IMG/VR virus record: IMGVR_UViG_3300020193_000071 | Location: 1 to 34,473 of that record | Source of the DNA: a virus | Length of the DNA stretch: 34,473 bases | Strand: one strand, 5' to 3' | Shown: piece by piece, positions 7,925 through 29,300 of the stretch | How positions within the stretch are numbered: the first letter of the stretch is position 1 | Layout: every line of letters starts with the position of its first letter | Program-made: the position numbers and the translations under genes | The notes under the pieces: generated by a model | Databases searched by the model: none | Seen by the model: only the letters and a program-made list of their open reading frames with translations | Told to the model about the DNA's origin: nothing

Positions 7925-9103
7925 TTAACCTATCACTATAGACTTACCCAAGGGCATGGGTATATAACGCAAATTCTTGTTCATGTTTTCGGCGGCTACT
8001 GCATCACTTTCAAGAAGTTTTGATCTAGTTAGATTAACTAAAAACTCTTTTAGCTGTGTTACGAGTTTATCTTTGTCTTCTCGACCTTGAGTTACAAGAG
8101 ACTCACCATTAAGCTGAAGATCAGCATTTGGAATTGGAATGCTCTGAAACTTAGAACGAATTAATCCAAGCAACTCTCTACAGAGTGCCAATGTATATTG
8201 ACGTATCCATTGACGACCTGGCTGTGTTATATTTGTGAAAGGAATATTGGTGTACGGTGCATTTTCCGGACCTGCGACGCCGTATATCGCGTCGTCAGTG
8301 TAAGCTGTTGGCTCAATAGGATTTTGTCCCTCCATTACTTTACAATAGACTTTACCCGTCTGTGACTCTAGCACGGGTATTGGAAAGAGTCTAAGCTTGC
8401 TACCAAGAATTTGATAGCTGTACTGCGATCTTCTAACTCTAAACGCTGTTTCCAACATTCCTCTTCTAAGCACATCTTCAAAGACTGGCAGCACATAGAA
8501 TACTGTCGAGTTGATGTATGACTCGTAGTTAAAATTGGACGCAAGATAGTTGGTAATATTTGAAGCATTTAGCAAGAAATGCTGTGCTGCTAGTGGTTCA
8601 AAATGAAAGAGCTCTACAATTTTTAGCTTACCTTTTGAACCACTAGCTATTGTTTGATAAATCACATCGTCAGTTGTCGCATCTTTTAAATCAGTATAGA
8701 TGTCATAGTCTTGCTTATCTTTTTCGATATCAAAATATCCTAACTGAGCATTATAAGCACCTCCCACGTTGGCTTCAACAGCGTAAGGATCTGCCATTCT
8801 TATTAAGTGTTCCAGTGTATTTCTAGTATACTTATTTGTTAGATCTGTGGATCCCGTAGGCATGCCTAAAATGTTTGATAATTCAGACATTATTTTCATC
8901 TCATGAATATGCTTGCTATATTCGCAGACCGACTCTTCAAAGCACGTCCAGATTTCTTTTTTAGTTAATTCAACAGATAAAACATCGTCGCCTAATTTTC
9001 TCTTCACAAAATTGACCATGTTATCAGCTTCTGTCTGAAATGCTGCGTCTGAATCAAAAAAACCAAACGGTGTTGGACTCACTGTGTTGCTAAAAGTTGG
9101 CAT
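7925..9103 (-). CDS. 13: Neck protein (gp13-like)
   Basis: A 392-residue protein likely corresponding to T4 gp13 (309 residues), the partner of gp14 in the neck. The N-terminal region, with FFDSDAAFQTEADNMVNFVK and LTKKEIWTCFEESVCEYSKH, has the helical pattern seen in gp13 homologues of marine T4-like phages, and the C-terminal third has an Arg/Leu-rich helix around RQWIRQYTLALCRELLGLIR. It is the first gene of the neck/sheath block, divergent from the endolysin with an 88-base gap that probably carries promoters in both directions. The ribosome-binding site is weak. Function is inferred from synteny and partial sequence resemblance. Confidence 0.6.
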   Translation of the reverse strand: MPTFSNTVSPTPFGFFDSDAAFQTEADNMVNFVKRKLGDDVLSVELTKKEIWTCFEESVCEYSKHIHEMKIMSELSNILGMPTGSTDLTNKYTRNTLEHLIRMADPYAVEANVGGAYNAQLGYFDIEKDKQDYDIYTDLKDATTDDVIYQTIASGSKGKLKIVELFHFEPLAAQHFLLNASNITNYLASNFNYESYINSTVFYVLPVFEDVLRRGMLETAFRVRRSQYSYQILGSKLRLFPIPVLESQTGKVYCKVMEGQNPIEPTAYTDDAIYGVAGPENAPYTNIPFTNITQPGRQWIRQYTLALCRELLGLIRSKFQSIPIPNADLQLNGESLVTQGREDKDKLVTQLKEFLVNLTRSKLLESDAVAAENMNKNLRYIPMPLGKSIVIG

Positions 9104-11167: not shown

Positions 11168-11473
11168 TTATTTTTCTTCAATCTTTGATATTAGCATGCC
11201 GACTTTTTTGGTAGCATCGGGACTTGCTGATAACAAAGATTTTACGAAAGCTAGCAGAGCGGCACCTTTACTTGCATCACCCTTTTTTGCAGCAGTAATA
11301 GCTGTTTTTAGTGTGGGCTCGTCTATGCCTAGTTGATTAGCAATTTCTTTGGTGTTAAGCTGTCCTTTCGTATCAGTCTTAGCACCCTTTGCATCAGCTG
11401 CAGAATCTTCTGCTTCTCTAAGAATCTCTTGACGAATAATTTTTCTAAGTTGTGTTTCTGTGATCTTGATCAT
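11168..11473 (-). CDS. Small head-type protein with shared N-terminal helix, 101 residues
   Basis: Function unknown. The N-terminus MIKITETQLRKIIRQEIL is an amphipathic helix closely similar to those of three other small proteins in this window (starts at 23825, 24316 and 29300). It is followed by an LREAED sequence that fits the T4 gp21 cleavage pattern (L/I-x-E). The rest contains a small helical segment, LNTKEIANQLGIDEPTLKTAI, of helix-turn-helix character, and an Ala/Lys-rich end. It begins 12 bases after the DUF1501-like gene and so is probably co-transcribed with the exported-protein cluster. I infer a capsid-internal protein; the helix-turn-helix-like part could bind DNA. Confidence 0.7.
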   Translation of the reverse strand: MIKITETQLRKIIRQEILREAEDSAADAKGAKTDTKGQLNTKEIANQLGIDEPTLKTAITAAKKGDASKGAALLAFVKSLLSASPDATKKVGMLISKIEEK

Positions 11474-11485
11474 AATTCTTAAATA

Positions 11486-13087
11486 TCACTTGCTATTGAT
11501 TAAACCAGAAACAATGCTTGGTGAAACACCATATTCTGCGGTCTTATTGACATCACCCTTCGCAGTTGCATAAACAATAGCAGCAGAAGCAAATGCAGAA
11601 CATTGCTCAGACGTTTTACTAACGTCGTCGGCACCTGTAGCGGGATTAAATCCAACAGCATTTTTACCGCCCATCTTGTTCGCGTAGCAGTGTCCGAACC
11701 ATCCATTCTTGATGTTTGCTTTTGGATCCATCACGTATGTCCAATTACACGCATCTGGAGTCGCATCAGGCCAAGTTGAACCCACTAACGGTGTGTGGGG
11801 TGTGTCACCGTACGCAACAAATGTAGTCGTCTGATCGAGTTTCTCTGTAGGACTTTCAGGATCTACTTGCTGCGACAGATAGTTGTAGAAGCCGTTCAGA
11901 ACCTTCCCTAGATGTTTCGTGGTATTTCGACCTTGGTTCATTAAGGTCATATTATCGAATGTAACGTGGGGATCTGTGAAGGTCGTGTCGCTGGTGGGAC
12001 CAGGAGACAGAGCCACGATTGCTGTCTTGGATAGACCAAGCGTGAATGCCTTCGCAACGACGATGAGCGTGCGTCCAAATTCTTCAATGCCTTTGCGTTG
12101 AGCTGAGGTCATATAGGACGAATTGGCACTTAGCCCATCGATCATTTCTTGAATTCCAAAGTCGATCAGATCTTGACTAGTTGGTGTTAATTGCGATGCA
12201 AAATTAAGCCCGATGATTCTAGCAGCGTTCTTGGTGATCTGCATCTGTGGTGCCCAAGAAGATCGAGCCGAAGACTTGCGCAAACCTGCGAGAGCTTTGT
12301 AATAGACTTCAAAGAGCTCTTGGTCAGCTTTTGAGGTTAGCGAAAACTGACTAGCTGCAGAGTTAAACAGATCGATCATACCTGCAGAGCTTGGAACCGT
12401 AGCCACTTCAGGCGCTCCGGGGGCTCTTCCGTATTTGACAGGATCGATGCCTAGAACTGGGACGATAGCTGAAGAACCTACTGCACCGAGAGATGCAAGT
12501 GCAGCTTGCATGGAAGAGTTACCTGATAGCGCAACTTGCGAGATCGGAAACTCAGTGTGGGTCTCGTCCTTACCGGACATGAACGCTGTCACTGGGTATT
12601 TGGGTATGCCGGTGATGTGATCAAACCACGGTGCATCAGGACCGTAGAAGAAAGATCTGTCTCCGCCCGACCAGCCCTTCACGCCGTTGGGTAGTAGGGG
12701 CATAGTGTTACCTTTGCCCCATGTATATGTTCCTCGGTATCCGTTGATTGGATTGTAACCGTATTGAGATGTATAGAGGTAAGAAGAGAATCCTCCAAAG
12801 TTAGACGACAGTCCGGACACATTAGCATTCTGGCATGCTTTGAATCCGACGTCAGCTACCGGCCACAACTCTTGGAACCAGGCTTGTGAACCGTTCGGCG
12901 CCGGTACTAGCAAAGATCTACCGTAAGTAGATCCTGCAGCTTCAGCTAATCCGTAACCTCCCTCGTCTGCTAAGAAATTAAGCAGTTTGCTTCTCTCGAT
13001 GCCGATAGCAGCGGCTGCAACAGTGCACATCTTTAAAAATGTGCGGCGGCGGTCGTCACGTAAACCCTTTAGCTTCCAGTTTGACAT
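11486..13087 (-). CDS. Tat-exported DUF1501-like protein
   Basis: A 533-residue predicted exported protein. The N-terminus has a twin-arginine motif, RRRTFLKM (residues 13-20), followed by an Ala-rich stretch, so folded export through the Tat system is likely. The C-terminal part (TTTFVAYGDTPHTPL and then FGHCYANKMGGKNAVG) resembles the end of DUF1501 proteins, where an EFGRT-type segment is followed by a Gly/His-rich loop; the fold there is sulfatase-like. In bacteria DUF1501 or DUF1552 genes are paired with cytochrome-like DUF1549/DUF1592 genes, and here the same pairing is seen within one operon. An AAAGGAA ribosome-binding site precedes the ATG, 15 bases after the preceding lipoprotein gene. 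The family assignment is moderate and the reaction is unknown. Confidence 0.6.
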   Translation of the reverse strand: MSNWKLKGLRDDRRRTFLKMCTVAAAAIGIERSKLLNFLADEGGYGLAEAAGSTYGRSLLVPAPNGSQAWFQELWPVADVGFKACQNANVSGLSSNFGGFSSYLYTSQYGYNPINGYRGTYTWGKGNTMPLLPNGVKGWSGGDRSFFYGPDAPWFDHITGIPKYPVTAFMSGKDETHTEFPISQVALSGNSSMQAALASLGAVGSSAIVPVLGIDPVKYGRAPGAPEVATVPSSAGMIDLFNSAASQFSLTSKADQELFEVYYKALAGLRKSSARSSWAPQMQITKNAARIIGLNFASQLTPTSQDLIDFGIQEMIDGLSANSSYMTSAQRKGIEEFGRTLIVVAKAFTLGLSKTAIVALSPGPTSDTTFTDPHVTFDNMTLMNQGRNTTKHLGKVLNGFYNYLSQQVDPESPTEKLDQTTTFVAYGDTPHTPLVGSTWPDATPDACNWTYVMDPKANIKNGWFGHCYANKMGGKNAVGFNPATGADDVSKTSEQCSAFASAAIVYATAKGDVNKTAEYGVSPSIVSGLINSK

Positions 13088-13102
13088 CTATTTTCCTTTG
13101 TG

Positions 13103-14107
13103 TTATTGGCAAGAGTGGGCTGCGCTGAGCAGTGCAGCGACTGCGATGTTCTTCTTCTTCATCAAATCAGACTGATCACCCGGTTTTGCTTTCTGCAGGA
13201 TGAGGTTGCACAACAGCATGTGGTCATCTGTGGCAGGCGTTCCGATCAAGCAAGACACGCTCTCTTCAACACAAGATCCGTCAGATGCGAACATGGGTAG
13301 ATTCTTGCCGTTCAAGGTGCACGCAGGTGCTTTTGTCGAGTCACCGATGTTTGCTATGATCTGTGCCGCAGCTTGCACGAAGATGTCCATGAGCTTCATA
13401 GCTGAGGCTGTAGAATGTTCCTCTTTTTCACTGAGGCGAGAGTCTAGCTTCGGAACACCCAGAGCATCTTTACCTGTGAAGTAGAGAAAGCCGGGCGTAG
13501 AAGGCTTCGCGACGCAGTAGCCATCTGCAGCATCGGGTGAATTATTGCCCACATCGAGACATCCTCTATTATTCTGAGTGAGCTTATCGTCTTGGTTGCA
13601 GAAGCAAGACTCATTTGTAGGACAAAGCGGATCGTTTGTGCCGTTAGCGTCAGTCACAGCCATCTCGCAAGCTGCACCGCTTCCACCAAAGATAGTGCCT
13701 AATGTCTGACTCATGCCGAAAGCTGGTGATTGCGTCGTCTTTAGATCAGTCAGATTTCCCGGAGGAATTAGAGCACCTCGGGCGCGCAAAAAGTTGCCCA
13801 GCTGTGCGTAAGTCAGTTTGTGGCAGCTGTGTAATCTTGACACGATCTCATCGGTGGCAGGGCTGTCGTATTGAGGCACTTCTTCAGGGTCACCACCCGT
13901 AGAAGACGTCGAGTCTGCAGAAGTTCCGCCTCCTACACCTGCTGCAGTTGAAGCGTCTGACGCGACTGTCACAGAGACCGAGGATGGATCTTCCCATTTA
14001 GGACAGTAACCCTCATCAATATCAGGTGGTGTAGCACCGCAAGAAGCTACAAAAATGTAGAATGTTACGAAGGTGAGACCCGGTAAAAACCTATTCGTTG
14101 TCTTCAT
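13103..14107 (-). CDS. Cys-rich exported lipoprotein
   Basis: A 334-residue protein with a lipoprotein signal: MKTTNRFLPG, a hydrophobic stretch and lipobox VASC with Cys23 as the modified residue. A Ser/Thr/Gly-rich linker (residues about 35-65) is followed by a domain with many cysteines (CPTNESCFCNQDD region) that probably form disulfides outside the cytoplasm. It ends AAHSCQ. I chose the ATG at 14107, not the one at 14128, because GAGG precedes it with good spacing and the start lies 1 base after the stop of the previous gene. No family is recognised with certainty. The context between the cytochrome-like and DUF1501-like genes suggests a complex at the membrane surface. Confidence 0.65.
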   Translation of the reverse strand: MKTTNRFLPGLTFVTFYIFVASCGATPPDIDEGYCPKWEDPSSVSVTVASDASTAAGVGGGTSADSTSSTGGDPEEVPQYDSPATDEIVSRLHSCHKLTYAQLGNFLRARGALIPPGNLTDLKTTQSPAFGMSQTLGTIFGGSGAACEMAVTDANGTNDPLCPTNESCFCNQDDKLTQNNRGCLDVGNNSPDAADGYCVAKPSTPGFLYFTGKDALGVPKLDSRLSEKEEHSTASAMKLMDIFVQAAAQIIANIGDSTKAPACTLNGKNLPMFASDGSCVEESVSCLIGTPATDDHMLLCNLILQKAKPGDQSDLMKKKNIAVAALLSAAHSCQ

Positions 14108-14108
14108 G

Positions 14109-15578
14109 TTAAAACCTCGTGAAATCATCAGACAGTAGAATTGATCTGAGCACTTTCTTTAAATTGTAACCGTTACTCTTAAACTGGGAGACCAGTTTGG
14201 TCATCGTTAAGAGCTCTACATTCTTATCTTTGCGGTCGGGCAGAGACACCCAAGCTCTTCCACCGATCTCAGTGATGTCAGGTCGACCCATAGCATAGTT
14301 CCAAATTCTCTTCACGGCGCATTCAATGACCTCATCGTCCTTTGACATTTGTTGGCCCAGCTCAGACAGATTTGCGGCAGGTGCAGGCACTTCAATACCG
14401 TCAACTTTCATGGTCTTCTTCCAGGCTGTAGTGTTATTACCGCTGTTAGGGCAGGAGGGAGAGGTGCACAGCCAGTCGCTCATCTTGGCTCGAGGCGAAC
14501 CTGTGACAGGCACAAAGACTGAATACTCACCCTGCGGAGTGAGCATCTGATAGATGCCCATTGAATCAAATTGACTGAACAGAGGAGACCGATGGTTCCA
14601 TGTGGCGTGACAGTTGGCACAAACATTGCTTGTGTTGTAGGCGTGAAAGTCCACACGCCCACCGTTACAAGTTCCAGCGATCTCACTCACGGGCCATTTG
14701 TTCTGGTAGCCCGGGATTGGTTTCTCACCGTTACAAGGTGCGTCGTCTGGAGGCTGATCTGTGGGTTCTCCGCCAGACTGCTCATTGCCACTGCGACACA
14801 AGAAGGTCTCGTGGTAGAAGCGGTTCCGTCTAAACGACAAGTTGCCATAGTATAAGCTCTGAGCACCGGGATCGGTGAGAATGCCCGAGTGGGTCATACC
14901 GCCAGGTAGATTGTTGCAAGAACCATCAACAAAGGTATTGTTTGCAGGATTAAAAGTAGGGCATGTATTAACTTGTTGAATGAGGATATTTCGCCAGTCT
15001 TTTTCTTCATAAACAACCTTTGCTGCAAAAATAGGTGCTGTATCTCGCGTAGGTTCTCCTGCTGTTGTTGATGCCCCACCCATTTTAAACGTGTACTTGA
15101 AGAACTCAACAAGAGACGCAGCGAAACGCGGATCAGACAACTTCTTGTCGATCAGCTCCTCGTACTTCGCCTTCTGCTGGTCTGGCGGCAGGTCGGCGAT
15201 CTCGTAGATCTCAGCTAGCGTAGGAGCATCACCAATCAGGAGAATACTCGCTGTGCGGAGGGCTTCAGAATAATCCAGTTCTCGCTCATCGAGCTCTGTC
15301 AGATCGATTTTAGGTTCATTGTTACCGGAGCCCGCAGCAGCCACAGAGGGGCCTGTAGTCTCACCCGCAGTTGTCTCTTGATCACTCGGCGAGGTGGAAG
15401 ACACCGACACCCCCGAAGATGTGGTCTTCACAGCGGGTGTGGAACAGTCCTCGTGCGCGGCGGAAGTATCCCCTGCGAGCTTATGAGGGTTGTGACGCTC
15501 GCAGCCGTAAGATGTGAGTAACGCTGAGGCAGCGAGGATCGCACCCGTCTTGGTGTATGTGTTTCTTGTCATTGCCAT
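14109..15578 (-). CDS. Exported c-type cytochrome-like lipoprotein (DUF1549/DUF1592/DUF1585-like)
   Basis: A 489-residue exported protein. An N-terminal signal with a loose lipobox ends at Cys26; a Ser/Thr-rich linker follows. Residues about 95-165 (SEALRTASILLIGDAPTLAE, then LIDKKLSDPRFAASLVEFF) match the N-terminal helical domain of DUF1549/DUF1592 proteins. Residues 320-324 are CANCH, a single CxxCH haem c attachment site. Residues about 400-489 (IECAVKRIWNYAMGRPDITE to ILLSDDFTRF) match the DUF1585-type end. These families occur in Planctomycetota and Myxococcota next to DUF1501/DUF1552 genes, as here. No Shine-Dalgarno sequence is seen; an ATAGTAAT motif stands 9 bases before the ATG. 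An electron-transfer or surface role is inferred. Confidence 0.7.
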   Translation of the reverse strand: MAMTRNTYTKTGAILAASALLTSYGCERHNPHKLAGDTSAAHEDCSTPAVKTTSSGVSVSSTSPSDQETTAGETTGPSVAAAGSGNNEPKIDLTELDERELDYSEALRTASILLIGDAPTLAEIYEIADLPPDQQKAKYEELIDKKLSDPRFAASLVEFFKYTFKMGGASTTAGEPTRDTAPIFAAKVVYEEKDWRNILIQQVNTCPTFNPANNTFVDGSCNNLPGGMTHSGILTDPGAQSLYYGNLSFRRNRFYHETFLCRSGNEQSGGEPTDQPPDDAPCNGEKPIPGYQNKWPVSEIAGTCNGGRVDFHAYNTSNVCANCHATWNHRSPLFSQFDSMGIYQMLTPQGEYSVFVPVTGSPRAKMSDWLCTSPSCPNSGNNTTAWKKTMKVDGIEVPAPAANLSELGQQMSKDDEVIECAVKRIWNYAMGRPDITEIGGRAWVSLPDRKDKNVELLTMTKLVSQFKSNGYNLKKVLRSILLSDDFTRF

Positions 15579-15586
15579 ATAACTTT

Positions 15587-15594
15587 ATTACTAT
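15587..15594 (-). promoter_or_regulatory. ATAGTTAT-like motif before cytochrome-like gene
   Basis: Reads ATAGTAAT on the minus strand (preceded by GT, giving a TATAGT box), one mismatch from the recurring octamer, 9 bases before the ATG. With no Shine-Dalgarno sequence in between, transcription from here would be nearly leaderless. Confidence 0.35.
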
Positions 15595-15644
15595 ACAACT
15601 TATAGTGGATTAAAGTTCAAAAATACAGTGGCAATTGACTGAAA

Positions 15645-17333: not shown

Positions 17334-18179
17334 TTAAGGTTGTTCAGGCTCGGACATCACCACGAAGCACCAACCGTGGCGCTGACAGAAGAGCTGAGCA
17401 GCCTCCCACTTGGCGTCGTCCACGGAGTCGGAGCGGCCCTTCACCTCGTACAGGGTGCGGTCGACGGGAGAGAAAAAATCAGGCACGTAAGTCTTGATCG
17501 AACCATCTGGATGTGTATAAGGAATTGTGATGCCGTGTTTCTTAGTGACGTAGTAACCCTTCGAGATGCATGATCGAAGAAATGAAGTCTCCCAAGAGGA
17601 GTGCATGAATTCTTCCTCTCCCGTGAAGGGATTGAGGATCCACTCAGCTTTGAAGGGTGCATGGGGACCGATCAGACCGGCTTCTAGCATCTCAAGATTA
17701 CGGCGTGTGAGGTCAGCTTTGCGTTTAGTGTCTTCTTTCCAGCCTTTACTTTGTCCTTCACACAAATGACGATTTTTAATCGGATCTTTAAAAGCTTTAG
17801 AGACGGCATTGCCGATCTTGGCAGATAAAATCTGCTTATTGTTCTTATAAGTTTGTCTAATCGAATTATTTCGTTTTTCTATCTGTTCAGGAGAAGTCTT
17901 AAATCCTTTTGCAAAGCAGCCCGTAACTTCCACACGTGCATTATGACCTGTCATATAGTCATTGAAACGATACTGAAGTTTATGCCACAAAACTTGCTCA
18001 CCACAACCACACATGCACAACGGAATCTTTTCATTGAGAAAGTACTTTAAAACGTAATTTTTCTGATCTTTGATGTTTTTGTGTGATCTGGTGATGTGAT
18101 TTCCTAAAGATCGTCTATTCTTGCACAATTGTCCACACGCTAAGCAAAACTGTTCTATGTCTTCGATCCCAATGCCCAT
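17334..18179 (-). CDS. Free-standing PD-(D/E)XK homing-type endonuclease with zinc fingers
   Basis: A 281-residue DNA endonuclease, probably a selfish homing gene. Residues 12-33 form a C2H2 finger (CLAC...HITRSH), and residues 55-79 form a second Cys/His cluster (CMCGCG...H). Residues about 95-130 (SPEQIEKRNNSIRQ onward) resemble NUMOD-type DNA-binding segments. The C-terminal domain has SSWETSF (Glu197), PDFF (Asp234) and YEVKG (Glu245, Lys247), the PD-(D/E)XK catalytic signature. It stands directly after the capsid gene, separated by the capsid terminator, a common site for such insertions. No Shine-Dalgarno sequence; an exact ATAGTTAT lies 4 bases before the ATG. Confidence 0.85.
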   Translation of the reverse strand: MGIGIEDIEQFCLACGQLCKNRRSLGNHITRSHKNIKDQKNYVLKYFLNEKIPLCMCGCGEQVLWHKLQYRFNDYMTGHNARVEVTGCFAKGFKTSPEQIEKRNNSIRQTYKNNKQILSAKIGNAVSKAFKDPIKNRHLCEGQSKGWKEDTKRKADLTRRNLEMLEAGLIGPHAPFKAEWILNPFTGEEEFMHSSWETSFLRSCISKGYYVTKKHGITIPYTHPDGSIKTYVPDFFSPVDRTLYEVKGRSDSVDDAKWEAAQLFCQRHGWCFVVMSEPEQP

Positions 18180-18277: not shown

Positions 18278-20155
18278 TCATATCACGTTCATGTCCAAAC
18301 ATGTGACCGTGCCGAAGAAGTCAGACCGCACCATTTTCTTGCCGTATCGAGTCATCACTCCCTTTCTCGGAGTGAAATCTTCTGGCGCGAAGATGGTTGG
18401 TGTCACGATGAGTGGCACGTACGGAGCGTAGACGTAGCCGGTCTCGAGGTAGCTGCCGCCCTTGTAGCCGACGAGGATCTTGTTTCTCACGAAGTAAGGA
18501 TCCTTGTAGACTGTGAAGCGGTTGCTCACGGTGCCGATCGCCTCAGCGCCGATGGAGAACGGTGAGCCGACCTGACCCTCGGCATCGATCGAAAGCTTGG
18601 GCTTGTAGAGGACCGAGCTCTCGAGGATGGTGGCGACGTCCGGTCCGCAGACGAGGAAGTTTGCGCTTCCGCGGAGTGTCTTGCGGTGGATGGTGTTGGC
18701 CACGTCGATGATGGTCTCAACGAGGGTCTCGTACCACTCGCGAACTGTGCCTGTGAAGGCCGGTCCGATTTGGTTGAGGTCGCTGAGGCTCTGACGAACT
18801 CCTGTCGACTTGTTGACGAAGCGTCCGGGCGAGCGGCTCCAGTAGTAGTTGGCGCCGTTGGCTGCAGACACGAGGTCGTTGAGGATCTCGCGGTCGATCT
18901 CGAGAGCAATCTGCTCAGAGAGAATCGAGGTGAGCTCAACCTCTGCGTCCATCGAGTGATAGGCGTTGAGGTCTTGCGCGAGCTCCGGCGACCAGCGAGC
19001 ACGTAGCTTGCGGGTCTCTGCTGTGACTGCGATCGACTCGATGCGGATGTCGATCTCTGGGATTGCCGGAGTAGGAGTCGTTCCGAAGTCAGACTCGAAG
19101 GAGGGCACTGTGACAGTTGAACCCACAGAGGAGTCAACTGAGAGGCTAGTAGACACTGCAAAAGTGAACTTGCCCGTGGCTGTACCATCGGCTTGCGCTG
19201 CATTATCAGCTGCGACGAGCATGAGGACGTGTGAGCCGTTGAGCGCGTCGCCTGTGAACACCTTGGTAGAATTGTTCCAGTTGCCACGCTTGTTCAGTCT
19301 GCGGAGGTTCTTGAGGCCGCTGCCCGCCTGGTATGCCTCGCCCCAAGCCTTGCTGTTAGTCACACCGCTGTGGAGTGCAACTTGCTCGACTGCGAGTCTA
19401 TCGACTGATGAGCCAAGGTCAGAGAAGGGCACGACGAAGTAGATTGCGTCGAGCGAGCCGTCAGCGAGAGAATTCTCAACTTGCGGGTCGAAGTCAGCAA
19501 ATCGTGCGTTTGAGCCGCTGAACATGGAGTCAGAGGTGATCATCACGCCTTCAGCCCACGCTCCGGAAGCGTTGAATGAACCCGAAGCGTTGCCTGAAGC
19601 ACCGGAATCATAGGTGAGATCAACGGACTGTGCAGAACCTGTCACTCGAGAGTAACCTGCACCCACAAGATCGTACATGCCGCCGGCGGCGAGGGATCCG
19701 GATTGGACGCCCTTGCCACGTGGATTGTTGTAGATCGATTGACCCCTCTCATAGACCGAAGTAGAATCTGATCCTGGTACGCCCACGTTTGTGCCGTAGG
19801 TGTAATCCAGATAGAAGATGAGTCCTGAGGGAAGGCTCATCGGTTGAATCGACACGAGCTCATTGGCAACGAGGCCACCGAACACGCGGCGGACGATCGG
19901 GAAGGCGATGTTTGAGAAGCCTTGGATCTGACCGCTGCTTGAAAGATTGCCGCCCCCTGAAGACAGAGCTGAGCTCTCCTTAAGGACTTGCGCTGCTTGA
20001 TTCTCGAGAAGCTGTGCCATCGTCTCACGTCGTGCGCCGTCGAGGCCACGGAGGAGACCTGTGCGGCTCCACTTCTCTGTTAAGCGGGCCCGCTCTGCAC
20101 CGATGTGCTTGTCGCGGATACCCTGTGCTAATTGATCTAAGCTAAAATACTTCAT
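18278..20155 (-). CDS. 23: Major capsid protein (gp23-like)
   Basis: The main head subunit, HK97 fold, 625 residues against 521 in T4 gp23. Family landmarks are VRRVFGGLVANELVSIQPMS with YLDYTYGTN after it (residues about 88-120), IRIESIAVTAETRKLRARWS followed by ELAQDLNAYHSMDAEVEL, then LEIDREILNDL. The C-terminus has GYKGGSYLETGYVYAPYVPL and FTPRKGVMTRYGKKM. A T4-type protease site (L-x-E) occurs at LKE60 followed by SSALSSGG, close to the T4 position (Glu65), so the mature protein probably starts at Ser61. The extra length is between residues 200 and 350, likely an insertion domain on the outer face. An AGGAG ribosome-binding site is present. The gene is notably GC-rich compared with the flanking structural genes. 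Confidence 0.96.
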   Translation of the reverse strand: MKYFSLDQLAQGIRDKHIGAERARLTEKWSRTGLLRGLDGARRETMAQLLENQAAQVLKESSALSSGGGNLSSSGQIQGFSNIAFPIVRRVFGGLVANELVSIQPMSLPSGLIFYLDYTYGTNVGVPGSDSTSVYERGQSIYNNPRGKGVQSGSLAAGGMYDLVGAGYSRVTGSAQSVDLTYDSGASGNASGSFNASGAWAEGVMITSDSMFSGSNARFADFDPQVENSLADGSLDAIYFVVPFSDLGSSVDRLAVEQVALHSGVTNSKAWGEAYQAGSGLKNLRRLNKRGNWNNSTKVFTGDALNGSHVLMLVAADNAAQADGTATGKFTFAVSTSLSVDSSVGSTVTVPSFESDFGTTPTPAIPEIDIRIESIAVTAETRKLRARWSPELAQDLNAYHSMDAEVELTSILSEQIALEIDREILNDLVSAANGANYYWSRSPGRFVNKSTGVRQSLSDLNQIGPAFTGTVREWYETLVETIIDVANTIHRKTLRGSANFLVCGPDVATILESSVLYKPKLSIDAEGQVGSPFSIGAEAIGTVSNRFTVYKDPYFVRNKILVGYKGGSYLETGYVYAPYVPLIVTPTIFAPEDFTPRKGVMTRYGKKMVRSDFFGTVTCLDMNVI

Positions 20156-23582: not shown

Positions 23583-23825
23583 TCAACCGCGTAACCAAGT
23601 CTTCTTAATCTCATTTATCTTTTGAAGGCGCCTGCGAAGACGTGACTCTTCTATCTTAAGAGCCTTCATGAAATCAATTGAAAGCTCATGTGACTTGTCA
23701 GAACCGAGCTCATCTGCATCAAGCTCTTCTGTATCTTTAGCTCTATCTTCAGTCGACTCCATGTCACCGAACTTAGCAACTTCTTCTTCAATAATCTGCT
23801 TGAGTAATCTGCTTGTTAGTTTCAT
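23583..23825 (-). CDS. Small head-type protein with shared N-terminal helix, 80 residues
   Basis: Function unknown. The N-terminus MKLTSRLLKQIIEEEVAKFG is the helix shared with three other small proteins in the window, with an IEE sequence that fits a gp21 cleavage pattern. An acidic middle (DRAKDTEELDADELGSDKS) is followed by a basic C-terminal helix (RLRRRLQKINEIKKTWLRG). Acid-base charge separation is common in prohead core proteins. An AGAGG ribosome-binding site is present. I infer a core or internal head protein. Confidence 0.7.
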   Translation of the reverse strand: MKLTSRLLKQIIEEEVAKFGDMESTEDRAKDTEELDADELGSDKSHELSIDFMKALKIEESRLRRRLQKINEIKKTWLRG

Positions 23826-23878: not shown

Positions 23879-24316
23879 TCATTTTTTTGGCACATCAGCA
23901 AAAGCTAGATTAGCCCACTTGGAAGCAGCCTCTTCACCAAACAGATCTTCAGGTGCAGCAGAGGCAACAATTTTTTCTGCAGCGCCCATTGGTGCAGGTG
24001 TAAATTTACCTGGTGTGTCCGATTCTAGCATTGACGGCAGGCTCTTAGCAGCTGTATCAGCTAGTATAGAAGCCATCATCTGATTGCCCCCGGACTCTAA
24101 TTTAATTGCTTCTCTTAGGGCAGTAGAAGGCATTCTCATTCTATCAGCAGATTTTCTTGAAACTTCAGAAGAATGAATGGATTTTTTAAGCGAGACAGAC
24201 TGTGACTCTCGTCTAGACTCATTGACTGCAGGTAGCGCAGAACCCACGCCCTCCGTTAGAATTTCTACAAGACATTCTTTAACAATTTGCTTCAGTTCAT
24301 TTTTTGTTAATTTCAT
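23879..24316 (-). CDS. Small head-type protein with shared N-terminal helix, 145 residues
   Basis: Function unknown. From the ATG at 24316 it reads MKLTKNELKQIVKECLVEIL followed by TEGVGSAL; LTE fits the L-x-E cleavage pattern of the T4 prohead protease. A longer version from a TTG at 24334 is possible but less likely, because the ATG version aligns with the shared N-terminal helix of its sister proteins. The remainder is Ser/Ala-rich with helices (ALREAIKLESGGNQMMASIL). It lies 25 bases after the protease gene, with no evident Shine-Dalgarno sequence. A capsid-internal role is inferred. Confidence 0.7.
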   Translation of the reverse strand: MKLTKNELKQIVKECLVEILTEGVGSALPAVNESRRESQSVSLKKSIHSSEVSRKSADRMRMPSTALREAIKLESGGNQMMASILADTAAKSLPSMLESDTPGKFTPAPMGAAEKIVASAAPEDLFGEEAASKWANLAFADVPKK

Positions 24317-24341
24317 AAGATTTAAAATTATCAATATTTAA

Positions 24342-24955: not shown

Positions 24956-25819
24956 TCACTCCTTTGAGTCAAGCTCTATTCTGAGCTTAGAATAAATCAT
25001 AAACTTTGTGATTAATGAGTCATTGATAACTTCAAAATTTTCATTCATTAATTCTTGCTTTGTTTCTAAAAGTTTTGTCTTTAGATGTGGCAAATCTTTA
25101 ATTTCTTCTAGATAAGAATTAATTCTCTCTGAAAGATCTTCTCTTACTTCTTCTAGCTTAATCTTTAAATATGAATAATCGTTGGAAGCAGAAGAAAGTG
25201 CGTATGCCTTAATGATGTCTTTTTGTTGTTCATTGAGACTACCTGCATATTTTTCATTTAACTTTTTTGTCATAACAGACATCAAAAGACGAGAAGTACC
25301 AGGTGTTTCTTCAGGCAGCGTGTGCTCAGAGAGATCCTGCTTAGAAGAAAGCAGCCATTGCATTAGCTGATCTTCGTATTCTGCAACTTTGGTGATATCT
25401 GCATCATCAGATCGCCATTCATTAATGAGTTGTTGAATCGTAGCACACATTCTGTATTCATTAATTTGCTGATCATAAAAAGATCCGTCATTATTAATCG
25501 TGTGGTTGATGTTTCGAATAAGCAAAGATTTTTCTCTATCCAAGGAATTTAAATCTATGCTTATTGCAGCATCTTTTGCTTCTTTAAGAATTCTAGATGC
25601 CACCTGAGGAGAAGACACTGTGGTTTTCATTAATGAGTTGAGCAATCTAAACTCTTTGTATAGCGTTGTGCCCTTCTTAAAATGTCTTCTCAAAATCTTT
25701 AAGGCAGACGATGATTTCTTCTTATCGTCATCGACCAACGACTTTGAGATACAAGAAACTAGAAATTCATACAACAAAATTGAATTTCTTTTTTTATTAT
25801 GATTTTTGCTACTTCTCAT
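24956..25819 (-). CDS. Hypothetical helical protein between portal and protease, 287 residues
   Basis: Not recognised by sequence. Almost entirely helical and charged (Lys/Glu/Asp/Leu/Ser), with several coiled-coil-like stretches, notably LKIKLEEVREDLSERINSYL and the segment after it. In T4 the small prohead core proteins gp67 and gp68 lie between portal and protease; this gene occupies that place but is longer. A role in the prohead core or in initiating assembly at the portal is inferred from position only. The ATG at 25819 overlaps the portal stop codon (TGATG), and GAGGAGA precedes it; a GTG one codon upstream is an alternative start. Confidence 0.7.
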   Translation of the reverse strand: MRSSKNHNKKRNSILLYEFLVSCISKSLVDDDKKKSSSALKILRRHFKKGTTLYKEFRLLNSLMKTTVSSPQVASRILKEAKDAAISIDLNSLDREKSLLIRNINHTINNDGSFYDQQINEYRMCATIQQLINEWRSDDADITKVAEYEDQLMQWLLSSKQDLSEHTLPEETPGTSRLLMSVMTKKLNEKYAGSLNEQQKDIIKAYALSSASNDYSYLKIKLEEVREDLSERINSYLEEIKDLPHLKTKLLETKQELMNENFEVINDSLITKFMIYSKLRIELDSKE

Positions 25820-28800
25820 CACAGTATCTCCTCTTCGTCTTTGTCAAACTCCTGCTCCTCTACTTCCATCGATAGTTCCTCAGATAAAATATTGTTTTCT
25901 CTAGGCATTTTATTTTGGAAAGCGGATGTTGATGCCATCTTTTTTAAGGCAGACATGACATCAGCGCCTATTCGAGTTCTCATTTCTTTTAGCGGATTTG
26001 AAGCAAGTGATTTAATAAACTTTCTGTCAAATGGATCTGTCATCGCCAAATCTTTAGCATCAAGAGATGATGCCCAGTCAGGCATGTGTAATTTTGCCGG
26101 CCCTGTGTGTCTAATTCTAGCTCTATTATGACGAATTTTATCTATTTGCCGCTGCGCTTTAACAGGCATTTCAATGTCTTTTAATTTAAATTTGATGCTA
26201 ATGTCTTCATCGTTATCGTCTGGATTGTCTGCTGAAAGAAGAAGATCACCTGTTTCGTTTTCTGCAGCATCGTCGCCGGTGAAGAGATCTCCTCCTTCTT
26301 CGCCAGATTCCTCGCTGTCGCCCTCAGATTCGCCTTCAGATTCTTCTCCCCCAGATTCCTCCTCAGGTTCTTCCTCAGGCTTTGCGTTTTCAATCTCTGC
26401 ATCAATCAATTTCTCTTTCAAGCGTTGCTCATCAATGTCTCTGCATTCTTCTTCGCTTAGCGCCCAAATGTGTTTTCTGATAAATTCTTTGCTCATTTGA
26501 CCTTCAGGTGCAGACCCTGCAATTTCAAACTTAGACCTCCACAGCTCAAGTTTTTGCTGTTGTGCTATCGTCGACGGGTTGGGTAGTCTTAAAACAAAAT
26601 TCTGCAAATCTTCATCATCAAAACCATGAGAATAGAGGTGAATGATGGCTAACTTGTTGAGCTCAGCGATAATAGTTTTTTGGATAACAGCAATCGTGCG
26701 TGAAAATCTAATGTCTTCTTGCGCAAGTGTAGCCTTAGAGCTAAGTGCTTCGTCATAGCCCAAATAAGCTTTTGGTATCTTAAGCGCTGAAAATAGCTTC
26801 TTTTGAATGTAGGCGACATCTTCGACTGCAGCTGCATTAGTTCCGCCTGCGAGTGTGTCTATCTTGGTTCCTGACTCACCGCCGCGCACGGGGATAAAAT
26901 AATCCTCGTCGACAGACAAGGGATTGTAACGAAGATCAACTCTGCCAGTTGAACGATCAACAACTTGACTCGACCTTAAATTTTTTCGCTGTTCCTCAAC
27001 ATACATCGGTACGTTTTCAGGGGGAATGTTTGCTACGTCAATATAAAACACGCGGCGTTCAGGCGCGCGGACGACTCTGTAAACCAACATTGCATCTTCG
27101 ATTAGAATCAACTGCCGCCAAATTCGACGAGCTGCTTCAATGATAGAAGAACCGTAGGGTAAAAATGAATCATTGCCTAGAAGTCTGAAGTGTATTATTT
27201 CCCAATTCTCTAAAGATTTATTTCCCATCGTGACCCATCTGTATCTGACAGCCATTGGATCGTCGGGATCATAATTTTCTTCTCTTATGATCTCATTGAC
27301 AGGTATTGGAAAAACATTAATCACGCCGTGGTCTGGAGATACGTCACAGTAAAGGAAGAAATCGCCATACTTGACTAAGTTTCTGGCCCATGAGCGAAGA
27401 TTAAATTCGACGTTCAAGATGTCGTAGAAGAGCTCTTCTAAAATTTCCTTTATCTTCTCATTCTCTGAATAGACATGTAACACTCTGCCCTTTTCATCTT
27501 GGGCACAAGTTTCATCTGCATATATGTCTAGCGCGCTCGCGATCTCAGGCGTGTTGTGTGAGATGACTGTGTCTGTAGCGAAGTTTTTGTATCCGTCAAC
27601 GGTCAAATCAAACAGAGGAATAACGCCGTGATATTCGACAGAGACAACTTTAAGATTCTCGTAATTCTGAGAGAACTCTGCGTAGTCCTTAAAGCCATTT
27701 TCAGAAAGTCGCTTAGACAGAGCTGTGTCAGTCGTGTTCAAAGAGTCGACTAGCTGCTTCTTTGACATGCCCTTAAAAAATAACGAACAAATTCTGTCAA
27801 ATGTAACAGCCTTATTATATCTTGGATTATTCTTGCCGCTATTGTCCCATCCTGCATCGTGCCAGTCAGGGTTGTAGGCACGAGCAAAAGTTTCAAAGTT
27901 CTGGTATCCGTGCTTACGAAGCATACGCTTGATCACATTGGAGTCAGTGTCAAGAACTTCACAAATTTTTCTAGCGTTGAAGTTAACTCTTTCAGCAATC
28001 TCAAGTAACCTGCCAAAAGTTATGTCTTTTCTTTCAGTTGGATTATTCTCGGACATAAACTTGGTCTGATTGATTTTGAATTGCTCAATCCAAGTCGAAT
28101 TTTTCTCTGACCACTTGACACCGTTGAGAATCTCTGCATGTAGACGTTGGTGGTCTTCATTTAACATTACTTGAAGATTGTCGGGCCTGTTGTCGTGTTT
28201 GATGAAGTTTCTATGATGAACAACTTCATTCTCTAGTAGTGGTGATCCTTTAATCATCTCACCGATAACTCGGTGTTCGGGTACCCAACCGTTCATCCTC
28301 GATCTGCGATCCATTGTATAGATCCAGCGATATCCTTCGCCTTCTTCTTTACAACCGTTAAAAAGGTCGCGGCGATAGAACGGCATCATTGCGTCACCGG
28401 CCTTGAGGTCTTCTATCTTGCAGAAGGTTCCGTCGCGCTTCATTAAGCGATGGTTTGGTGTTCCGATGATCTGTTGTCCGTTGTCAAACGTCACTGTGTA
28501 AGCACGATCTACACGAGTTTGACGAGCTTGCTTACCCCAAGTCGGAACGATTCTTCCTAAGTTATGATCGTAAGCATACACCAAGAAGGTCTTGTCTGGT
28601 TCTGATTCACATTCTTCAGCAAGATCTTTAATCTTTTTATAGCCGCCCGGTACAGCGATCTGTGTGTCACCGTGTAGACAATATTCCATCTCCACGAAGT
28701 CCTGATATCTCATCATTCTTTCAGAGAGGTTATATGCGTTAGCAGTAATAGTGGTATATGTCGGTACTACGCTCTTCTGAAAGAGCAGAGTACCGCTACT

Positions 28801-28920
28801 TTTAGAAGCATCTGGGAGAGCAACAGTTGTATCTAGACTTCTGATTTTTCGCTTTACTATGGGCCCGCTCTTGAAAAGTCTAGTTAATTTTTGAAAAAGT
28901 GTCTGTTGATTCTTTGCCAT
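25819..28920 (-). CDS. 20: Portal protein (gp20-like) interrupted by an intein
   Basis: Head vertex portal through which DNA is packaged and to which the neck binds. The 1033-residue precursor holds a 376-residue intein (residues 81-456); the spliced portal would be 657 residues, against 524 in T4. Extein landmarks are MMRYQDFVEMEY followed after splicing by TPEIASALDIYADET, then FNLRSWARNLVKYGDFFLYC, MAVRYRWVTMGNKSLENWEI and LSSKATLAQEDIRFSRTI. The C-terminus (after residue 830) has a long Glu/Ser/Gly acidic tail not seen in T4. A GGGGAGG ribosome-binding site precedes the ATG. The stop overlaps the next gene. Confidence 0.95.
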   Translation of the reverse strand: MAKNQQTLFQKLTRLFKSGPIVKRKIRSLDTTVALPDASKSSGTLLFQKSVVPTYTTITANAYNLSERMMRYQDFVEMEYCLHGDTQIAVPGGYKKIKDLAEECESEPDKTFLVYAYDHNLGRIVPTWGKQARQTRVDRAYTVTFDNGQQIIGTPNHRLMKRDGTFCKIEDLKAGDAMMPFYRRDLFNGCKEEGEGYRWIYTMDRRSRMNGWVPEHRVIGEMIKGSPLLENEVVHHRNFIKHDNRPDNLQVMLNEDHQRLHAEILNGVKWSEKNSTWIEQFKINQTKFMSENNPTERKDITFGRLLEIAERVNFNARKICEVLDTDSNVIKRMLRKHGYQNFETFARAYNPDWHDAGWDNSGKNNPRYNKAVTFDRICSLFFKGMSKKQLVDSLNTTDTALSKRLSENGFKDYAEFSQNYENLKVVSVEYHGVIPLFDLTVDGYKNFATDTVISHNTPEIASALDIYADETCAQDEKGRVLHVYSENEKIKEILEELFYDILNVEFNLRSWARNLVKYGDFFLYCDVSPDHGVINVFPIPVNEIIREENYDPDDPMAVRYRWVTMGNKSLENWEIIHFRLLGNDSFLPYGSSIIEAARRIWRQLILIEDAMLVYRVVRAPERRVFYIDVANIPPENVPMYVEEQRKNLRSSQVVDRSTGRVDLRYNPLSVDEDYFIPVRGGESGTKIDTLAGGTNAAAVEDVAYIQKKLFSALKIPKAYLGYDEALSSKATLAQEDIRFSRTIAVIQKTIIAELNKLAIIHLYSHGFDDEDLQNFVLRLPNPSTIAQQQKLELWRSKFEIAGSAPEGQMSKEFIRKHIWALSEEECRDIDEQRLKEKLIDAEIENAKPEEEPEEESGGEESEGESEGDSEESGEEGGDLFTGDDAAENETGDLLLSADNPDDNDEDISIKFKLKDIEMPVKAQRQIDKIRHNRARIRHTGPAKLHMPDWASSLDAKDLAMTDPFDRKFIKSLASNPLKEMRTRIGADVMSALKKMASTSAFQNKMPRENNILSEELSMEVEEQEFDKDEEEIL
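27553..28680 (-). mobile_element. Intein with HNH homing endonuclease in the portal gene
   Basis: A self-splicing protein element of 376 residues. The first residue is Cys81 in CLHGDTQIAVPG (block A); block B is IIGTPNHRLM with Thr154 and His157; block F is IPLFDLTVDGYKNFATD; block G is VISHN with His455-Asn456, followed by extein Thr457. Removing it joins MEY to TPEIAS, the conserved portal sequence, which fixes the borders. Between the splicing blocks is an HNH nuclease region (NEVVHHRNFIKHDNRPDNLQ, with His235/236, Asn248 and His257), followed by two helix-turn-helix-like repeats (RKICEVLDTDSNVIKRML and KKQLVDSLNTTDTALSKRL) that probably bind the target site. All key splicing residues are present, so it is probably active. 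Confidence 0.95.
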
Positions 28921-28994: not shown

Positions 28995-29300
28995 TCATAC
29001 TCTTGTTGGTTTAAAAACAGCCTTCTTGACAGCAGGGTTCGGCTTGTCAGAGACGTCAATGTAATTCATAGAGTTTCTTGCAATAGTATCAAGTTTTGAC
29101 TTTAAATCATCAAGAACTTCTTCGCCTACAAAAGTCTTAGAAGAAGCTGAGGCATTCTGCTTAAACGTCTCAATTGCAGAAATTAAATCTGCAGCGGACT
29201 TCATAACTTTTGATCCGTCTTTGTATTCATCAACCTCGTGAAGTTTTTCAATTTCTTCTCTAATGATCTGCTTAAGTTGTTTGATGTCTATACTTGTCAT
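28995..29300 (-). CDS. Small head-type protein with shared N-terminal helix, 101 residues
   Basis: Function unknown. The N-terminus MTSIDIKQLKQIIREEIEKL is the shared helix, followed by HEVDEYKDG; LHE fits the prohead protease pattern L-x-E. The rest is a helical domain with Lys and Ser, ending in a basic tail KKAVFKPTRV. It lies between terminase and portal, 29 bases after the terminase stop, with an AAGGAA ribosome-binding site. I infer a capsid-internal protein or core component. Confidence 0.7.
   Translation of the reverse strand: MTSIDIKQLKQIIREEIEKLHEVDEYKDGSKVMKSAADLISAIETFKQNASASSKTFVGEEVLDDLKSKLDTIARNSMNYIDVSDKPNPAVKKAVFKPTRV

Follow-up and report, generated by a model that had tools for sequence, protein, structure and literature searches.

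The viral record analysed here, 34,473 bases long and referred to below as the window, carries a T4-like virion cluster that includes Gp23 capsid, portal, head protease, tail sheath, and neck or head–tail adaptor genes. Amid this block lie three adjacent, co-directional and operon-spaced open reading frames on the minus strand (genes A, B, and C), which a preliminary description made from the letters had placed correctly. The features on which the analysis turns are as follows.

7925 to 9103, minus strand: neck / head–tail adaptor gene, bounding the cargo slot downstream (PHROG 211, 1.3e-11)
11168 to 11473, minus strand: small protein adjoining C, with the N-terminal tag MIKITETQLRKIIRQEI; outside the bacterial operon, and in most relatives not adjoining C
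11486 to 13087, minus strand: gene C, twin-arginine-signal protein with a predicted divergent DUF1501-like (alkaline-phosphatase-superfamily-like) fold (profile–profile comparison and motif)
13103 to 14128, minus strand: gene B, Cys-rich lipoprotein with an RLHSC.K motif (lipobox and conserved Cys)
14109 to 15578, minus strand: gene A, lipoprotein having the lipobox LTSYGC and a single haem-c site of CXXCH type, CANCH (Pfam and motifs)
15579 to 15625, minus strand: promoter-like element immediately before A, in which a T-tract and a TATWAT-like -10 lie near the ATG; Shine-Dalgarno sequence lacking
18278 to 20155, minus strand: T4-like major capsid protein, bounding the cargo slot upstream (Pfam Gp23, 4.4e-77; PHROG 138)

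Anatomy of the three genes and their surroundings

The lipobox and the single CANCH site of A are both present, as the preliminary description had reported, and the protein is laid out as a DUF1549-like N-terminal part, a DUF1588-like haem region, and a DUF1585 (PSD2) C-terminal part. Its match to Pfam PSD2/DUF1585 (E 5.4e-7, 29.7 bits) exceeds the cut-off of 25.8, and those to PSCyt2/DUF1549 (2e-4) and PSCyt3/DUF1588 (0.015) fall under theirs; the bacterial A of locus L189 reaches 33.8 bits against PSCyt2, above the cut-off of 29.8. The families first proposed for A are thus borne out for DUF1585, found below threshold for DUF1549, and not recovered for DUF1592, to which A had no match in the Pfam search. 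The lipobox and CXXCH are retained in the phage relatives, with exactly one CXXCH per A in all 33 phage and bacterial rows. We therefore regard A as a predicted haem protein, presumably loaded with haem.

Gene B has no family match in Pfam searches, and none of the three proteins has a match in PHROGs or PADLOC. Its proposed identity as a Cys-rich lipoprotein agrees with the conservation of the lipobox cysteine and of other cysteines, four of which are invariant in 62 phage and bacterial rows. Because many relatives begin B at or after an internal methionine, its translation most likely starts at the internal ATG near 14104, not at 14128.

Gene C had been put forward as a Tat-exported, DUF1501-like protein. 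Its twin-arginine motif reads RRRTFLKM, the RR being invariant across the phage and bacterial rows compared, and TIGR01409 falls just under its cut-off (E 0.01). The DUF1501 part of the proposal survives at the level of profiles and fails at the level of family membership: C has no match to Pfam DUF1501 or DUF1552 even at E 1, and C loci are absent from both the DUF1501 (PF07394) and the HXXSHH/DUF1552 (PF07586) matches of the same genomes. When a profile of 65 bacterial C reads (some of them duplicates) and 10 phage C was set against 24 DUF1501 proteins, hhalign gave 97.6%, mainly over the C-terminal half; HXXSHH/DUF1552 gave 65.6%. Among the controls, reversed profiles gave 0.1–0.2%, the A and B profiles less than 1%, and DUF1501 against HXXSHH 99.3%. 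We accordingly treat C as a separate, unnamed family that, judged by profiles and motifs, is related to DUF1501 without being a member of Pfam DUF1501 or DUF1552. Eight residues (H177, D372, P373, H374, D428, W439, D441, and N448) are retained across 64 phage and bacterial rows and fit the metal-site motifs of the DUF1501 superfamily, with candidate metal ligands among them. Of those motifs (GG-x-D, TH, D-x-H, G-x-TP ... DH), TH, DPH, GDTP, and WPD are kept in C; in the profile alignment the GG-x-D aspartate and the last histidine are replaced, so that catalysis by C is uncertain. AlphaFold models of A and C were unusable (mean pLDDT 37 and 33), the alignments being too shallow, and a sequence search of the PDB returned nothing relevant. 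Since A and B bear lipoprotein signals and C a Tat signal, all three products are predicted to act outside the cytoplasm, as first suggested.

The combination of T-tract and TATWAT-like element stands before 13 of 16 phage A genes, as against 12 of 177 genes of G245, a 205-kb phage relative. A Shine-Dalgarno sequence precedes A in just one of 16 phage genomes; the ribosome site of the capsid gene is normal. We read the element as a dedicated promoter that would give a leaderless or near-leaderless transcript. Given this promoter-like element, it would be unsafe to take the trio as transcribed late along with the virion genes. The T4 late promoter TATAAATA has no match within the window.

Other features of the window and of G245 are recorded for completeness. 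An N-terminal tag like MKITxxxLRxIIxEE is common to the small phage proteins at 11168-11473, 23583-23825, 23879-24334, and 28995-29300 (minus strand) and to six further proteins in G245 (L252-L262); it is perhaps a capsid-targeting sequence cut off by the head protease. Within the portal gene (25819-28920) lies an intein-like insert, in frame and matching HNH endonucleases, and the G245 portal, of 589 aa, is uninterrupted. G245 also has three tail-sheath-like genes in tandem (102281-111697, or L257:2281-11697). Between the capsid gene and the trio lies a TnsA-like or endonuclease-like gene (17334-18179) that varies among relatives; such TnsA-like nucleases may help cargo to enter the capsid–neck slot.

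Recurrence in phages and capture from Polyangia

A scan of viral contigs found C at 31 loci, and a profile scan added more; several of the contigs are 187–211 kb long. The order capsid, A, B, C, neck holds wherever a contig is long enough, and A-B-C recurs in more than 30 independent viral contigs as well as in Polyangia, confirming the earlier suggestion that partners of the A and C types are kept together. The preliminary description had also raised possible misassembly near 11.2 or 15.6 kb. That concern is removed by the same joints in many independent contigs, including L002, from a different metagenome record, which spans both positions at 94–100% identity. An annotated phage collection, covering only part of the published phages, held no match for C or A.

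The GC content of the trio exceeds that of most of the window; the GC3 of the capsid gene is higher still, the highest in the window. In G245, the trio's GC3 (0.20–0.24) matches the genome median of 0.24. On these two grounds we rejected the idea that an unusual GC content marks the trio as recently transferred.

Across relatives, C is 81–92% identical, compared with approximately 75% for the capsid, 71% for the neck, and 59% for the sheath, and it tops the region in most relatives. Comparison with L008 gives C a dN/dS of 0.023 and A one of 0.056, rough values because synonymous sites approach saturation; strong purifying selection acts on C. At L003:3-12504, the trio region is near-identical to the window (C 96%, low pS) and the downstream genes are far more diverged, a pattern indicating that the trio recombines or moves between phages.

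A scan of bacterial genomes returned six C loci, 62–76% identical, all from MAGs named Polyangiaceae, Myxococcales, or Deltaproteobacteria. Complete chromosomal A-B-C operons are spread across class Polyangia (Myxococcota), beside EngB-like, glmS-like, clpA-like, and nuo-like genes (identified by reading the sequences) and no phage genes. C occurs in 61 of 241 genomes drawn from class Polyangia, some of them with three or four copies, and in a phylum-wide draw it was found only in genomes already known from Polyangia. Two freshwater MAGs (L173 and L174) have a type I trio beside beta-galactosidase-like and nuo-like genes in the same arrangement. Several type II bacterial operons have an additional upstream gene for a cytochrome c-like lipoprotein, mostly with two CXXCH and cytochrome c matches, which we consider a predicted dihaem cytochrome, as yet unnamed; it is missing from the phage trios and from the freshwater type I operons. 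Upstream lipoproteins of this kind lie at L188:3749-4882, L185:10620-11777, L189:9665-10936, and L179:10563-11762, most of them also with a long middle domain.

In line with the bacterial donor that the preliminary description had expected, phylogeny nests the phage rows inside Polyangia clades. The C tree places the 18 rows of the window group together, as one clade, within the freshwater type I bacteria, and L106, L118, and L119 as another within the type II bacteria. A single origin of the phage trios was rejected: forcing phage monophyly costs a delta lnL of 400.6 (p 6.5e-80). The A and B trees, made by a quick method, show the same two-type split, with one bacterial B (L123) among the phage rows of the B tree, where a frame problem in the L123 MAG is possible. 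From these trees we infer that the donor is Polyangia and that phages captured the trio at least twice, from two bacterial paralogue clades.

The distribution of trio I over the capsid tree picks out one crown clade. Three close relatives within it (L066, L039, and L044) lack the trio, which is therefore not essential. L106 falls inside the trio I capsid clade yet carries type II in the same slot, so that the two trio types appear interchangeable; L118 combines a type II trio with a different capsid lineage. In trio-less relatives, the capsid–neck slot carries unrelated cargo. Within a phage clade the trio has been resident for a long time. We hold the origin and anatomy described here with high confidence. 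Judged from the origin of the genes, the phage hosts are very probably freshwater Polyangia, where "freshwater" is taken from bacterial MAG titles (lake isolate names) and general knowledge. A literature search on myxobacterial jumbo phages gave nothing useful.

What the exported products may do

The preliminary description had listed several possible roles without choosing among them, and we rank such roles here. Our main reading, to which we give a probability of about 0.47, is that the trio is an auxiliary exported redox module supporting a process of the outer host cell during infection, its substrate and activity being putative. On infection, the trio's own promoter would drive its transcription; A and B would pass through the Sec and lipoprotein pathway, presumably to the outer membrane, and the maturation system of the host would furnish A with c-type haem. 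C would be exported folded by Tat and would sit with A and B as a phosphatase-fold partner in a putative complex. This complex would supplement or replace the host's own A-B-C, so that an extracytoplasmic reaction yielding energy or nutrients could continue during the shut-down of host expression, much as cyanophage psbA serves photosystem II. The CXXCH kept in 33 of 33 rows, the invariant or nearly invariant B cysteines and C candidate ligands, and the strong selection favour a working exported complex over a simple decoy, and for that reason we rank the redox module above superinfection exclusion, a polymer or lysis function, and a virion role. Against it stand the absence of the upstream cytochrome partner from the captured genes, the dispensability of the trio, and the uncertain catalysis by C.

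The cytochrome c-like gene upstream in the bacterial operon points to electron transfer. We consider it rather doubtful that the trio is specifically a surface-acting, outer-membrane electron-transfer module, drawn independently from two host paralogue families and swapped in one slot, that would redirect or sustain extracytoplasmic respiration of the infected cell. Our literature search found no function for any of the PSCyt/DUF1501-class families concerned. PSCyt genes, which have been called intriguing, are conserved beside uncharacterised partner families, and their context ties them to periplasmic carbohydrate use (PMC5615132).

A second explanation is superinfection exclusion or receptor masking, in which the host A-B-C complex at the cell surface would act as a receptor for phages or help them adsorb, and a version made by the phage would block or swap it. 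As lipoproteins, two of the three products should lie on the outer membrane; a promoter-like element of its own precedes the trio; and the hosts have several diverged copies, as expected for a target under phage pressure. There is also precedent in a phage lipoprotein, since Llp of T5 blocks FhuA. Blocking, however, calls for no haem site and for fewer than three proteins, and here the CXXCH and the candidate metal ligands are kept; moreover, an arms-race protein should vary, whereas C, with its dN/dS of 0.023, is the most conserved protein in most relatives. The lack of a PADLOC-DB match also counts against this explanation without being decisive, and we judge it unlikely.

The relatives of DUF1501 are alkaline-phosphatase-like (Pfam clan), which would suit a trio that alters or breaks an extracytoplasmic polymer, such as exopolysaccharide, and so aids progeny release or spread. 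Genomic context lends itself to the same idea: DUF1501/DUF1800 operons adjoin chitin synthase genes in bacteria (PMC5122149), PSCyt genes lie near sulfatases and carbohydrate-binding domains (PMC5615132), and an endolysin gene lies 1.5 kb from the trio. The endolysin gene, however, is on the opposite strand and varies in position and presence among relatives, and the Pfam search revealed no carbohydrate-binding or hydrolase domain in the trio, making a surface-polymer or lysis helper improbable. Packaging of the products in the virion, or their attachment to it, is very improbable: the genes do lie within the virion block by the capsid gene, but they bear three export signals and their own promoter-like element, bacterial chromosomes carry the same genes with no phage genes, and the cargo of the slot is unrelated in relatives. 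As for bacterial DNA misassembled onto a phage, or decaying passenger genes, the trio's GC above most of the window is outweighed by the capsid and G245 values, by the same joints in more than 30 contigs, and by the purifying selection, leaving a negligible likelihood.

Comparison with known systems

Exported proteins of the PSCyt/DUF1501 class abound in Planctomycetes, Verrucomicrobia, and Myxococcota. In these phyla, PSCyt2/PSCyt3/PSD proteins have DUF1501 or HXXSHH partners; A resembles them in its DUF1585, DUF1549, and DUF1588 matches and in the adjoining Tat-exported, alkaline-phosphatase-like partner. The phage system differs in the shortness of A, a lipoprotein that combines parts of three domains, in a C that lies below Pfam detection, and in a B of no named family. 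Captured twice and under strong selection, the phage trio cuts the PSCyt/DUF1501 system to its likely working core; the process would then matter within one infection cycle, making its function testable. The DUF1800–DUF1501 pairs found beside bacterial chitin synthases also join an exported protein to a Tat-exported DUF1501 protein, but have neither a haem lipoprotein nor B, and were described in bacteria rather than phages (PMC5122149).

The closest counterparts are the Polyangia type I operons of freshwater MAGs (L121-L126, L174, L175, and L177), which have the same order, signals, and motifs, a C 62–76% identical, and the phage rows nested inside them. Unlike the phage trio, the Polyangia operons are chromosomal, GC-rich (63–71%), and often multi-copy, and those of type II often include an upstream gene for a cytochrome c-like protein, which is missing from the phage trio. 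Polyangia are accordingly the probable host for a clade of large uncultured phages.

T5 Llp-type proteins are likewise phage-coded lipoproteins, but Llp is one small protein without a cofactor, whereas the trio is large, haem-site-bearing, and host-derived. Being host-derived and lying beside phage hallmark genes, the trio is a candidate set of auxiliary metabolic genes. Such genes of T4-like and large phages include psbA and psbD of cyanophages and pmoC of freshwater phages, with which the trio shares repeated host capture, strong conservation, phage–phage exchange, and a T4-like carrier; it differs from them in being a predicted three-gene module of exported haem lipoprotein and Tat type.
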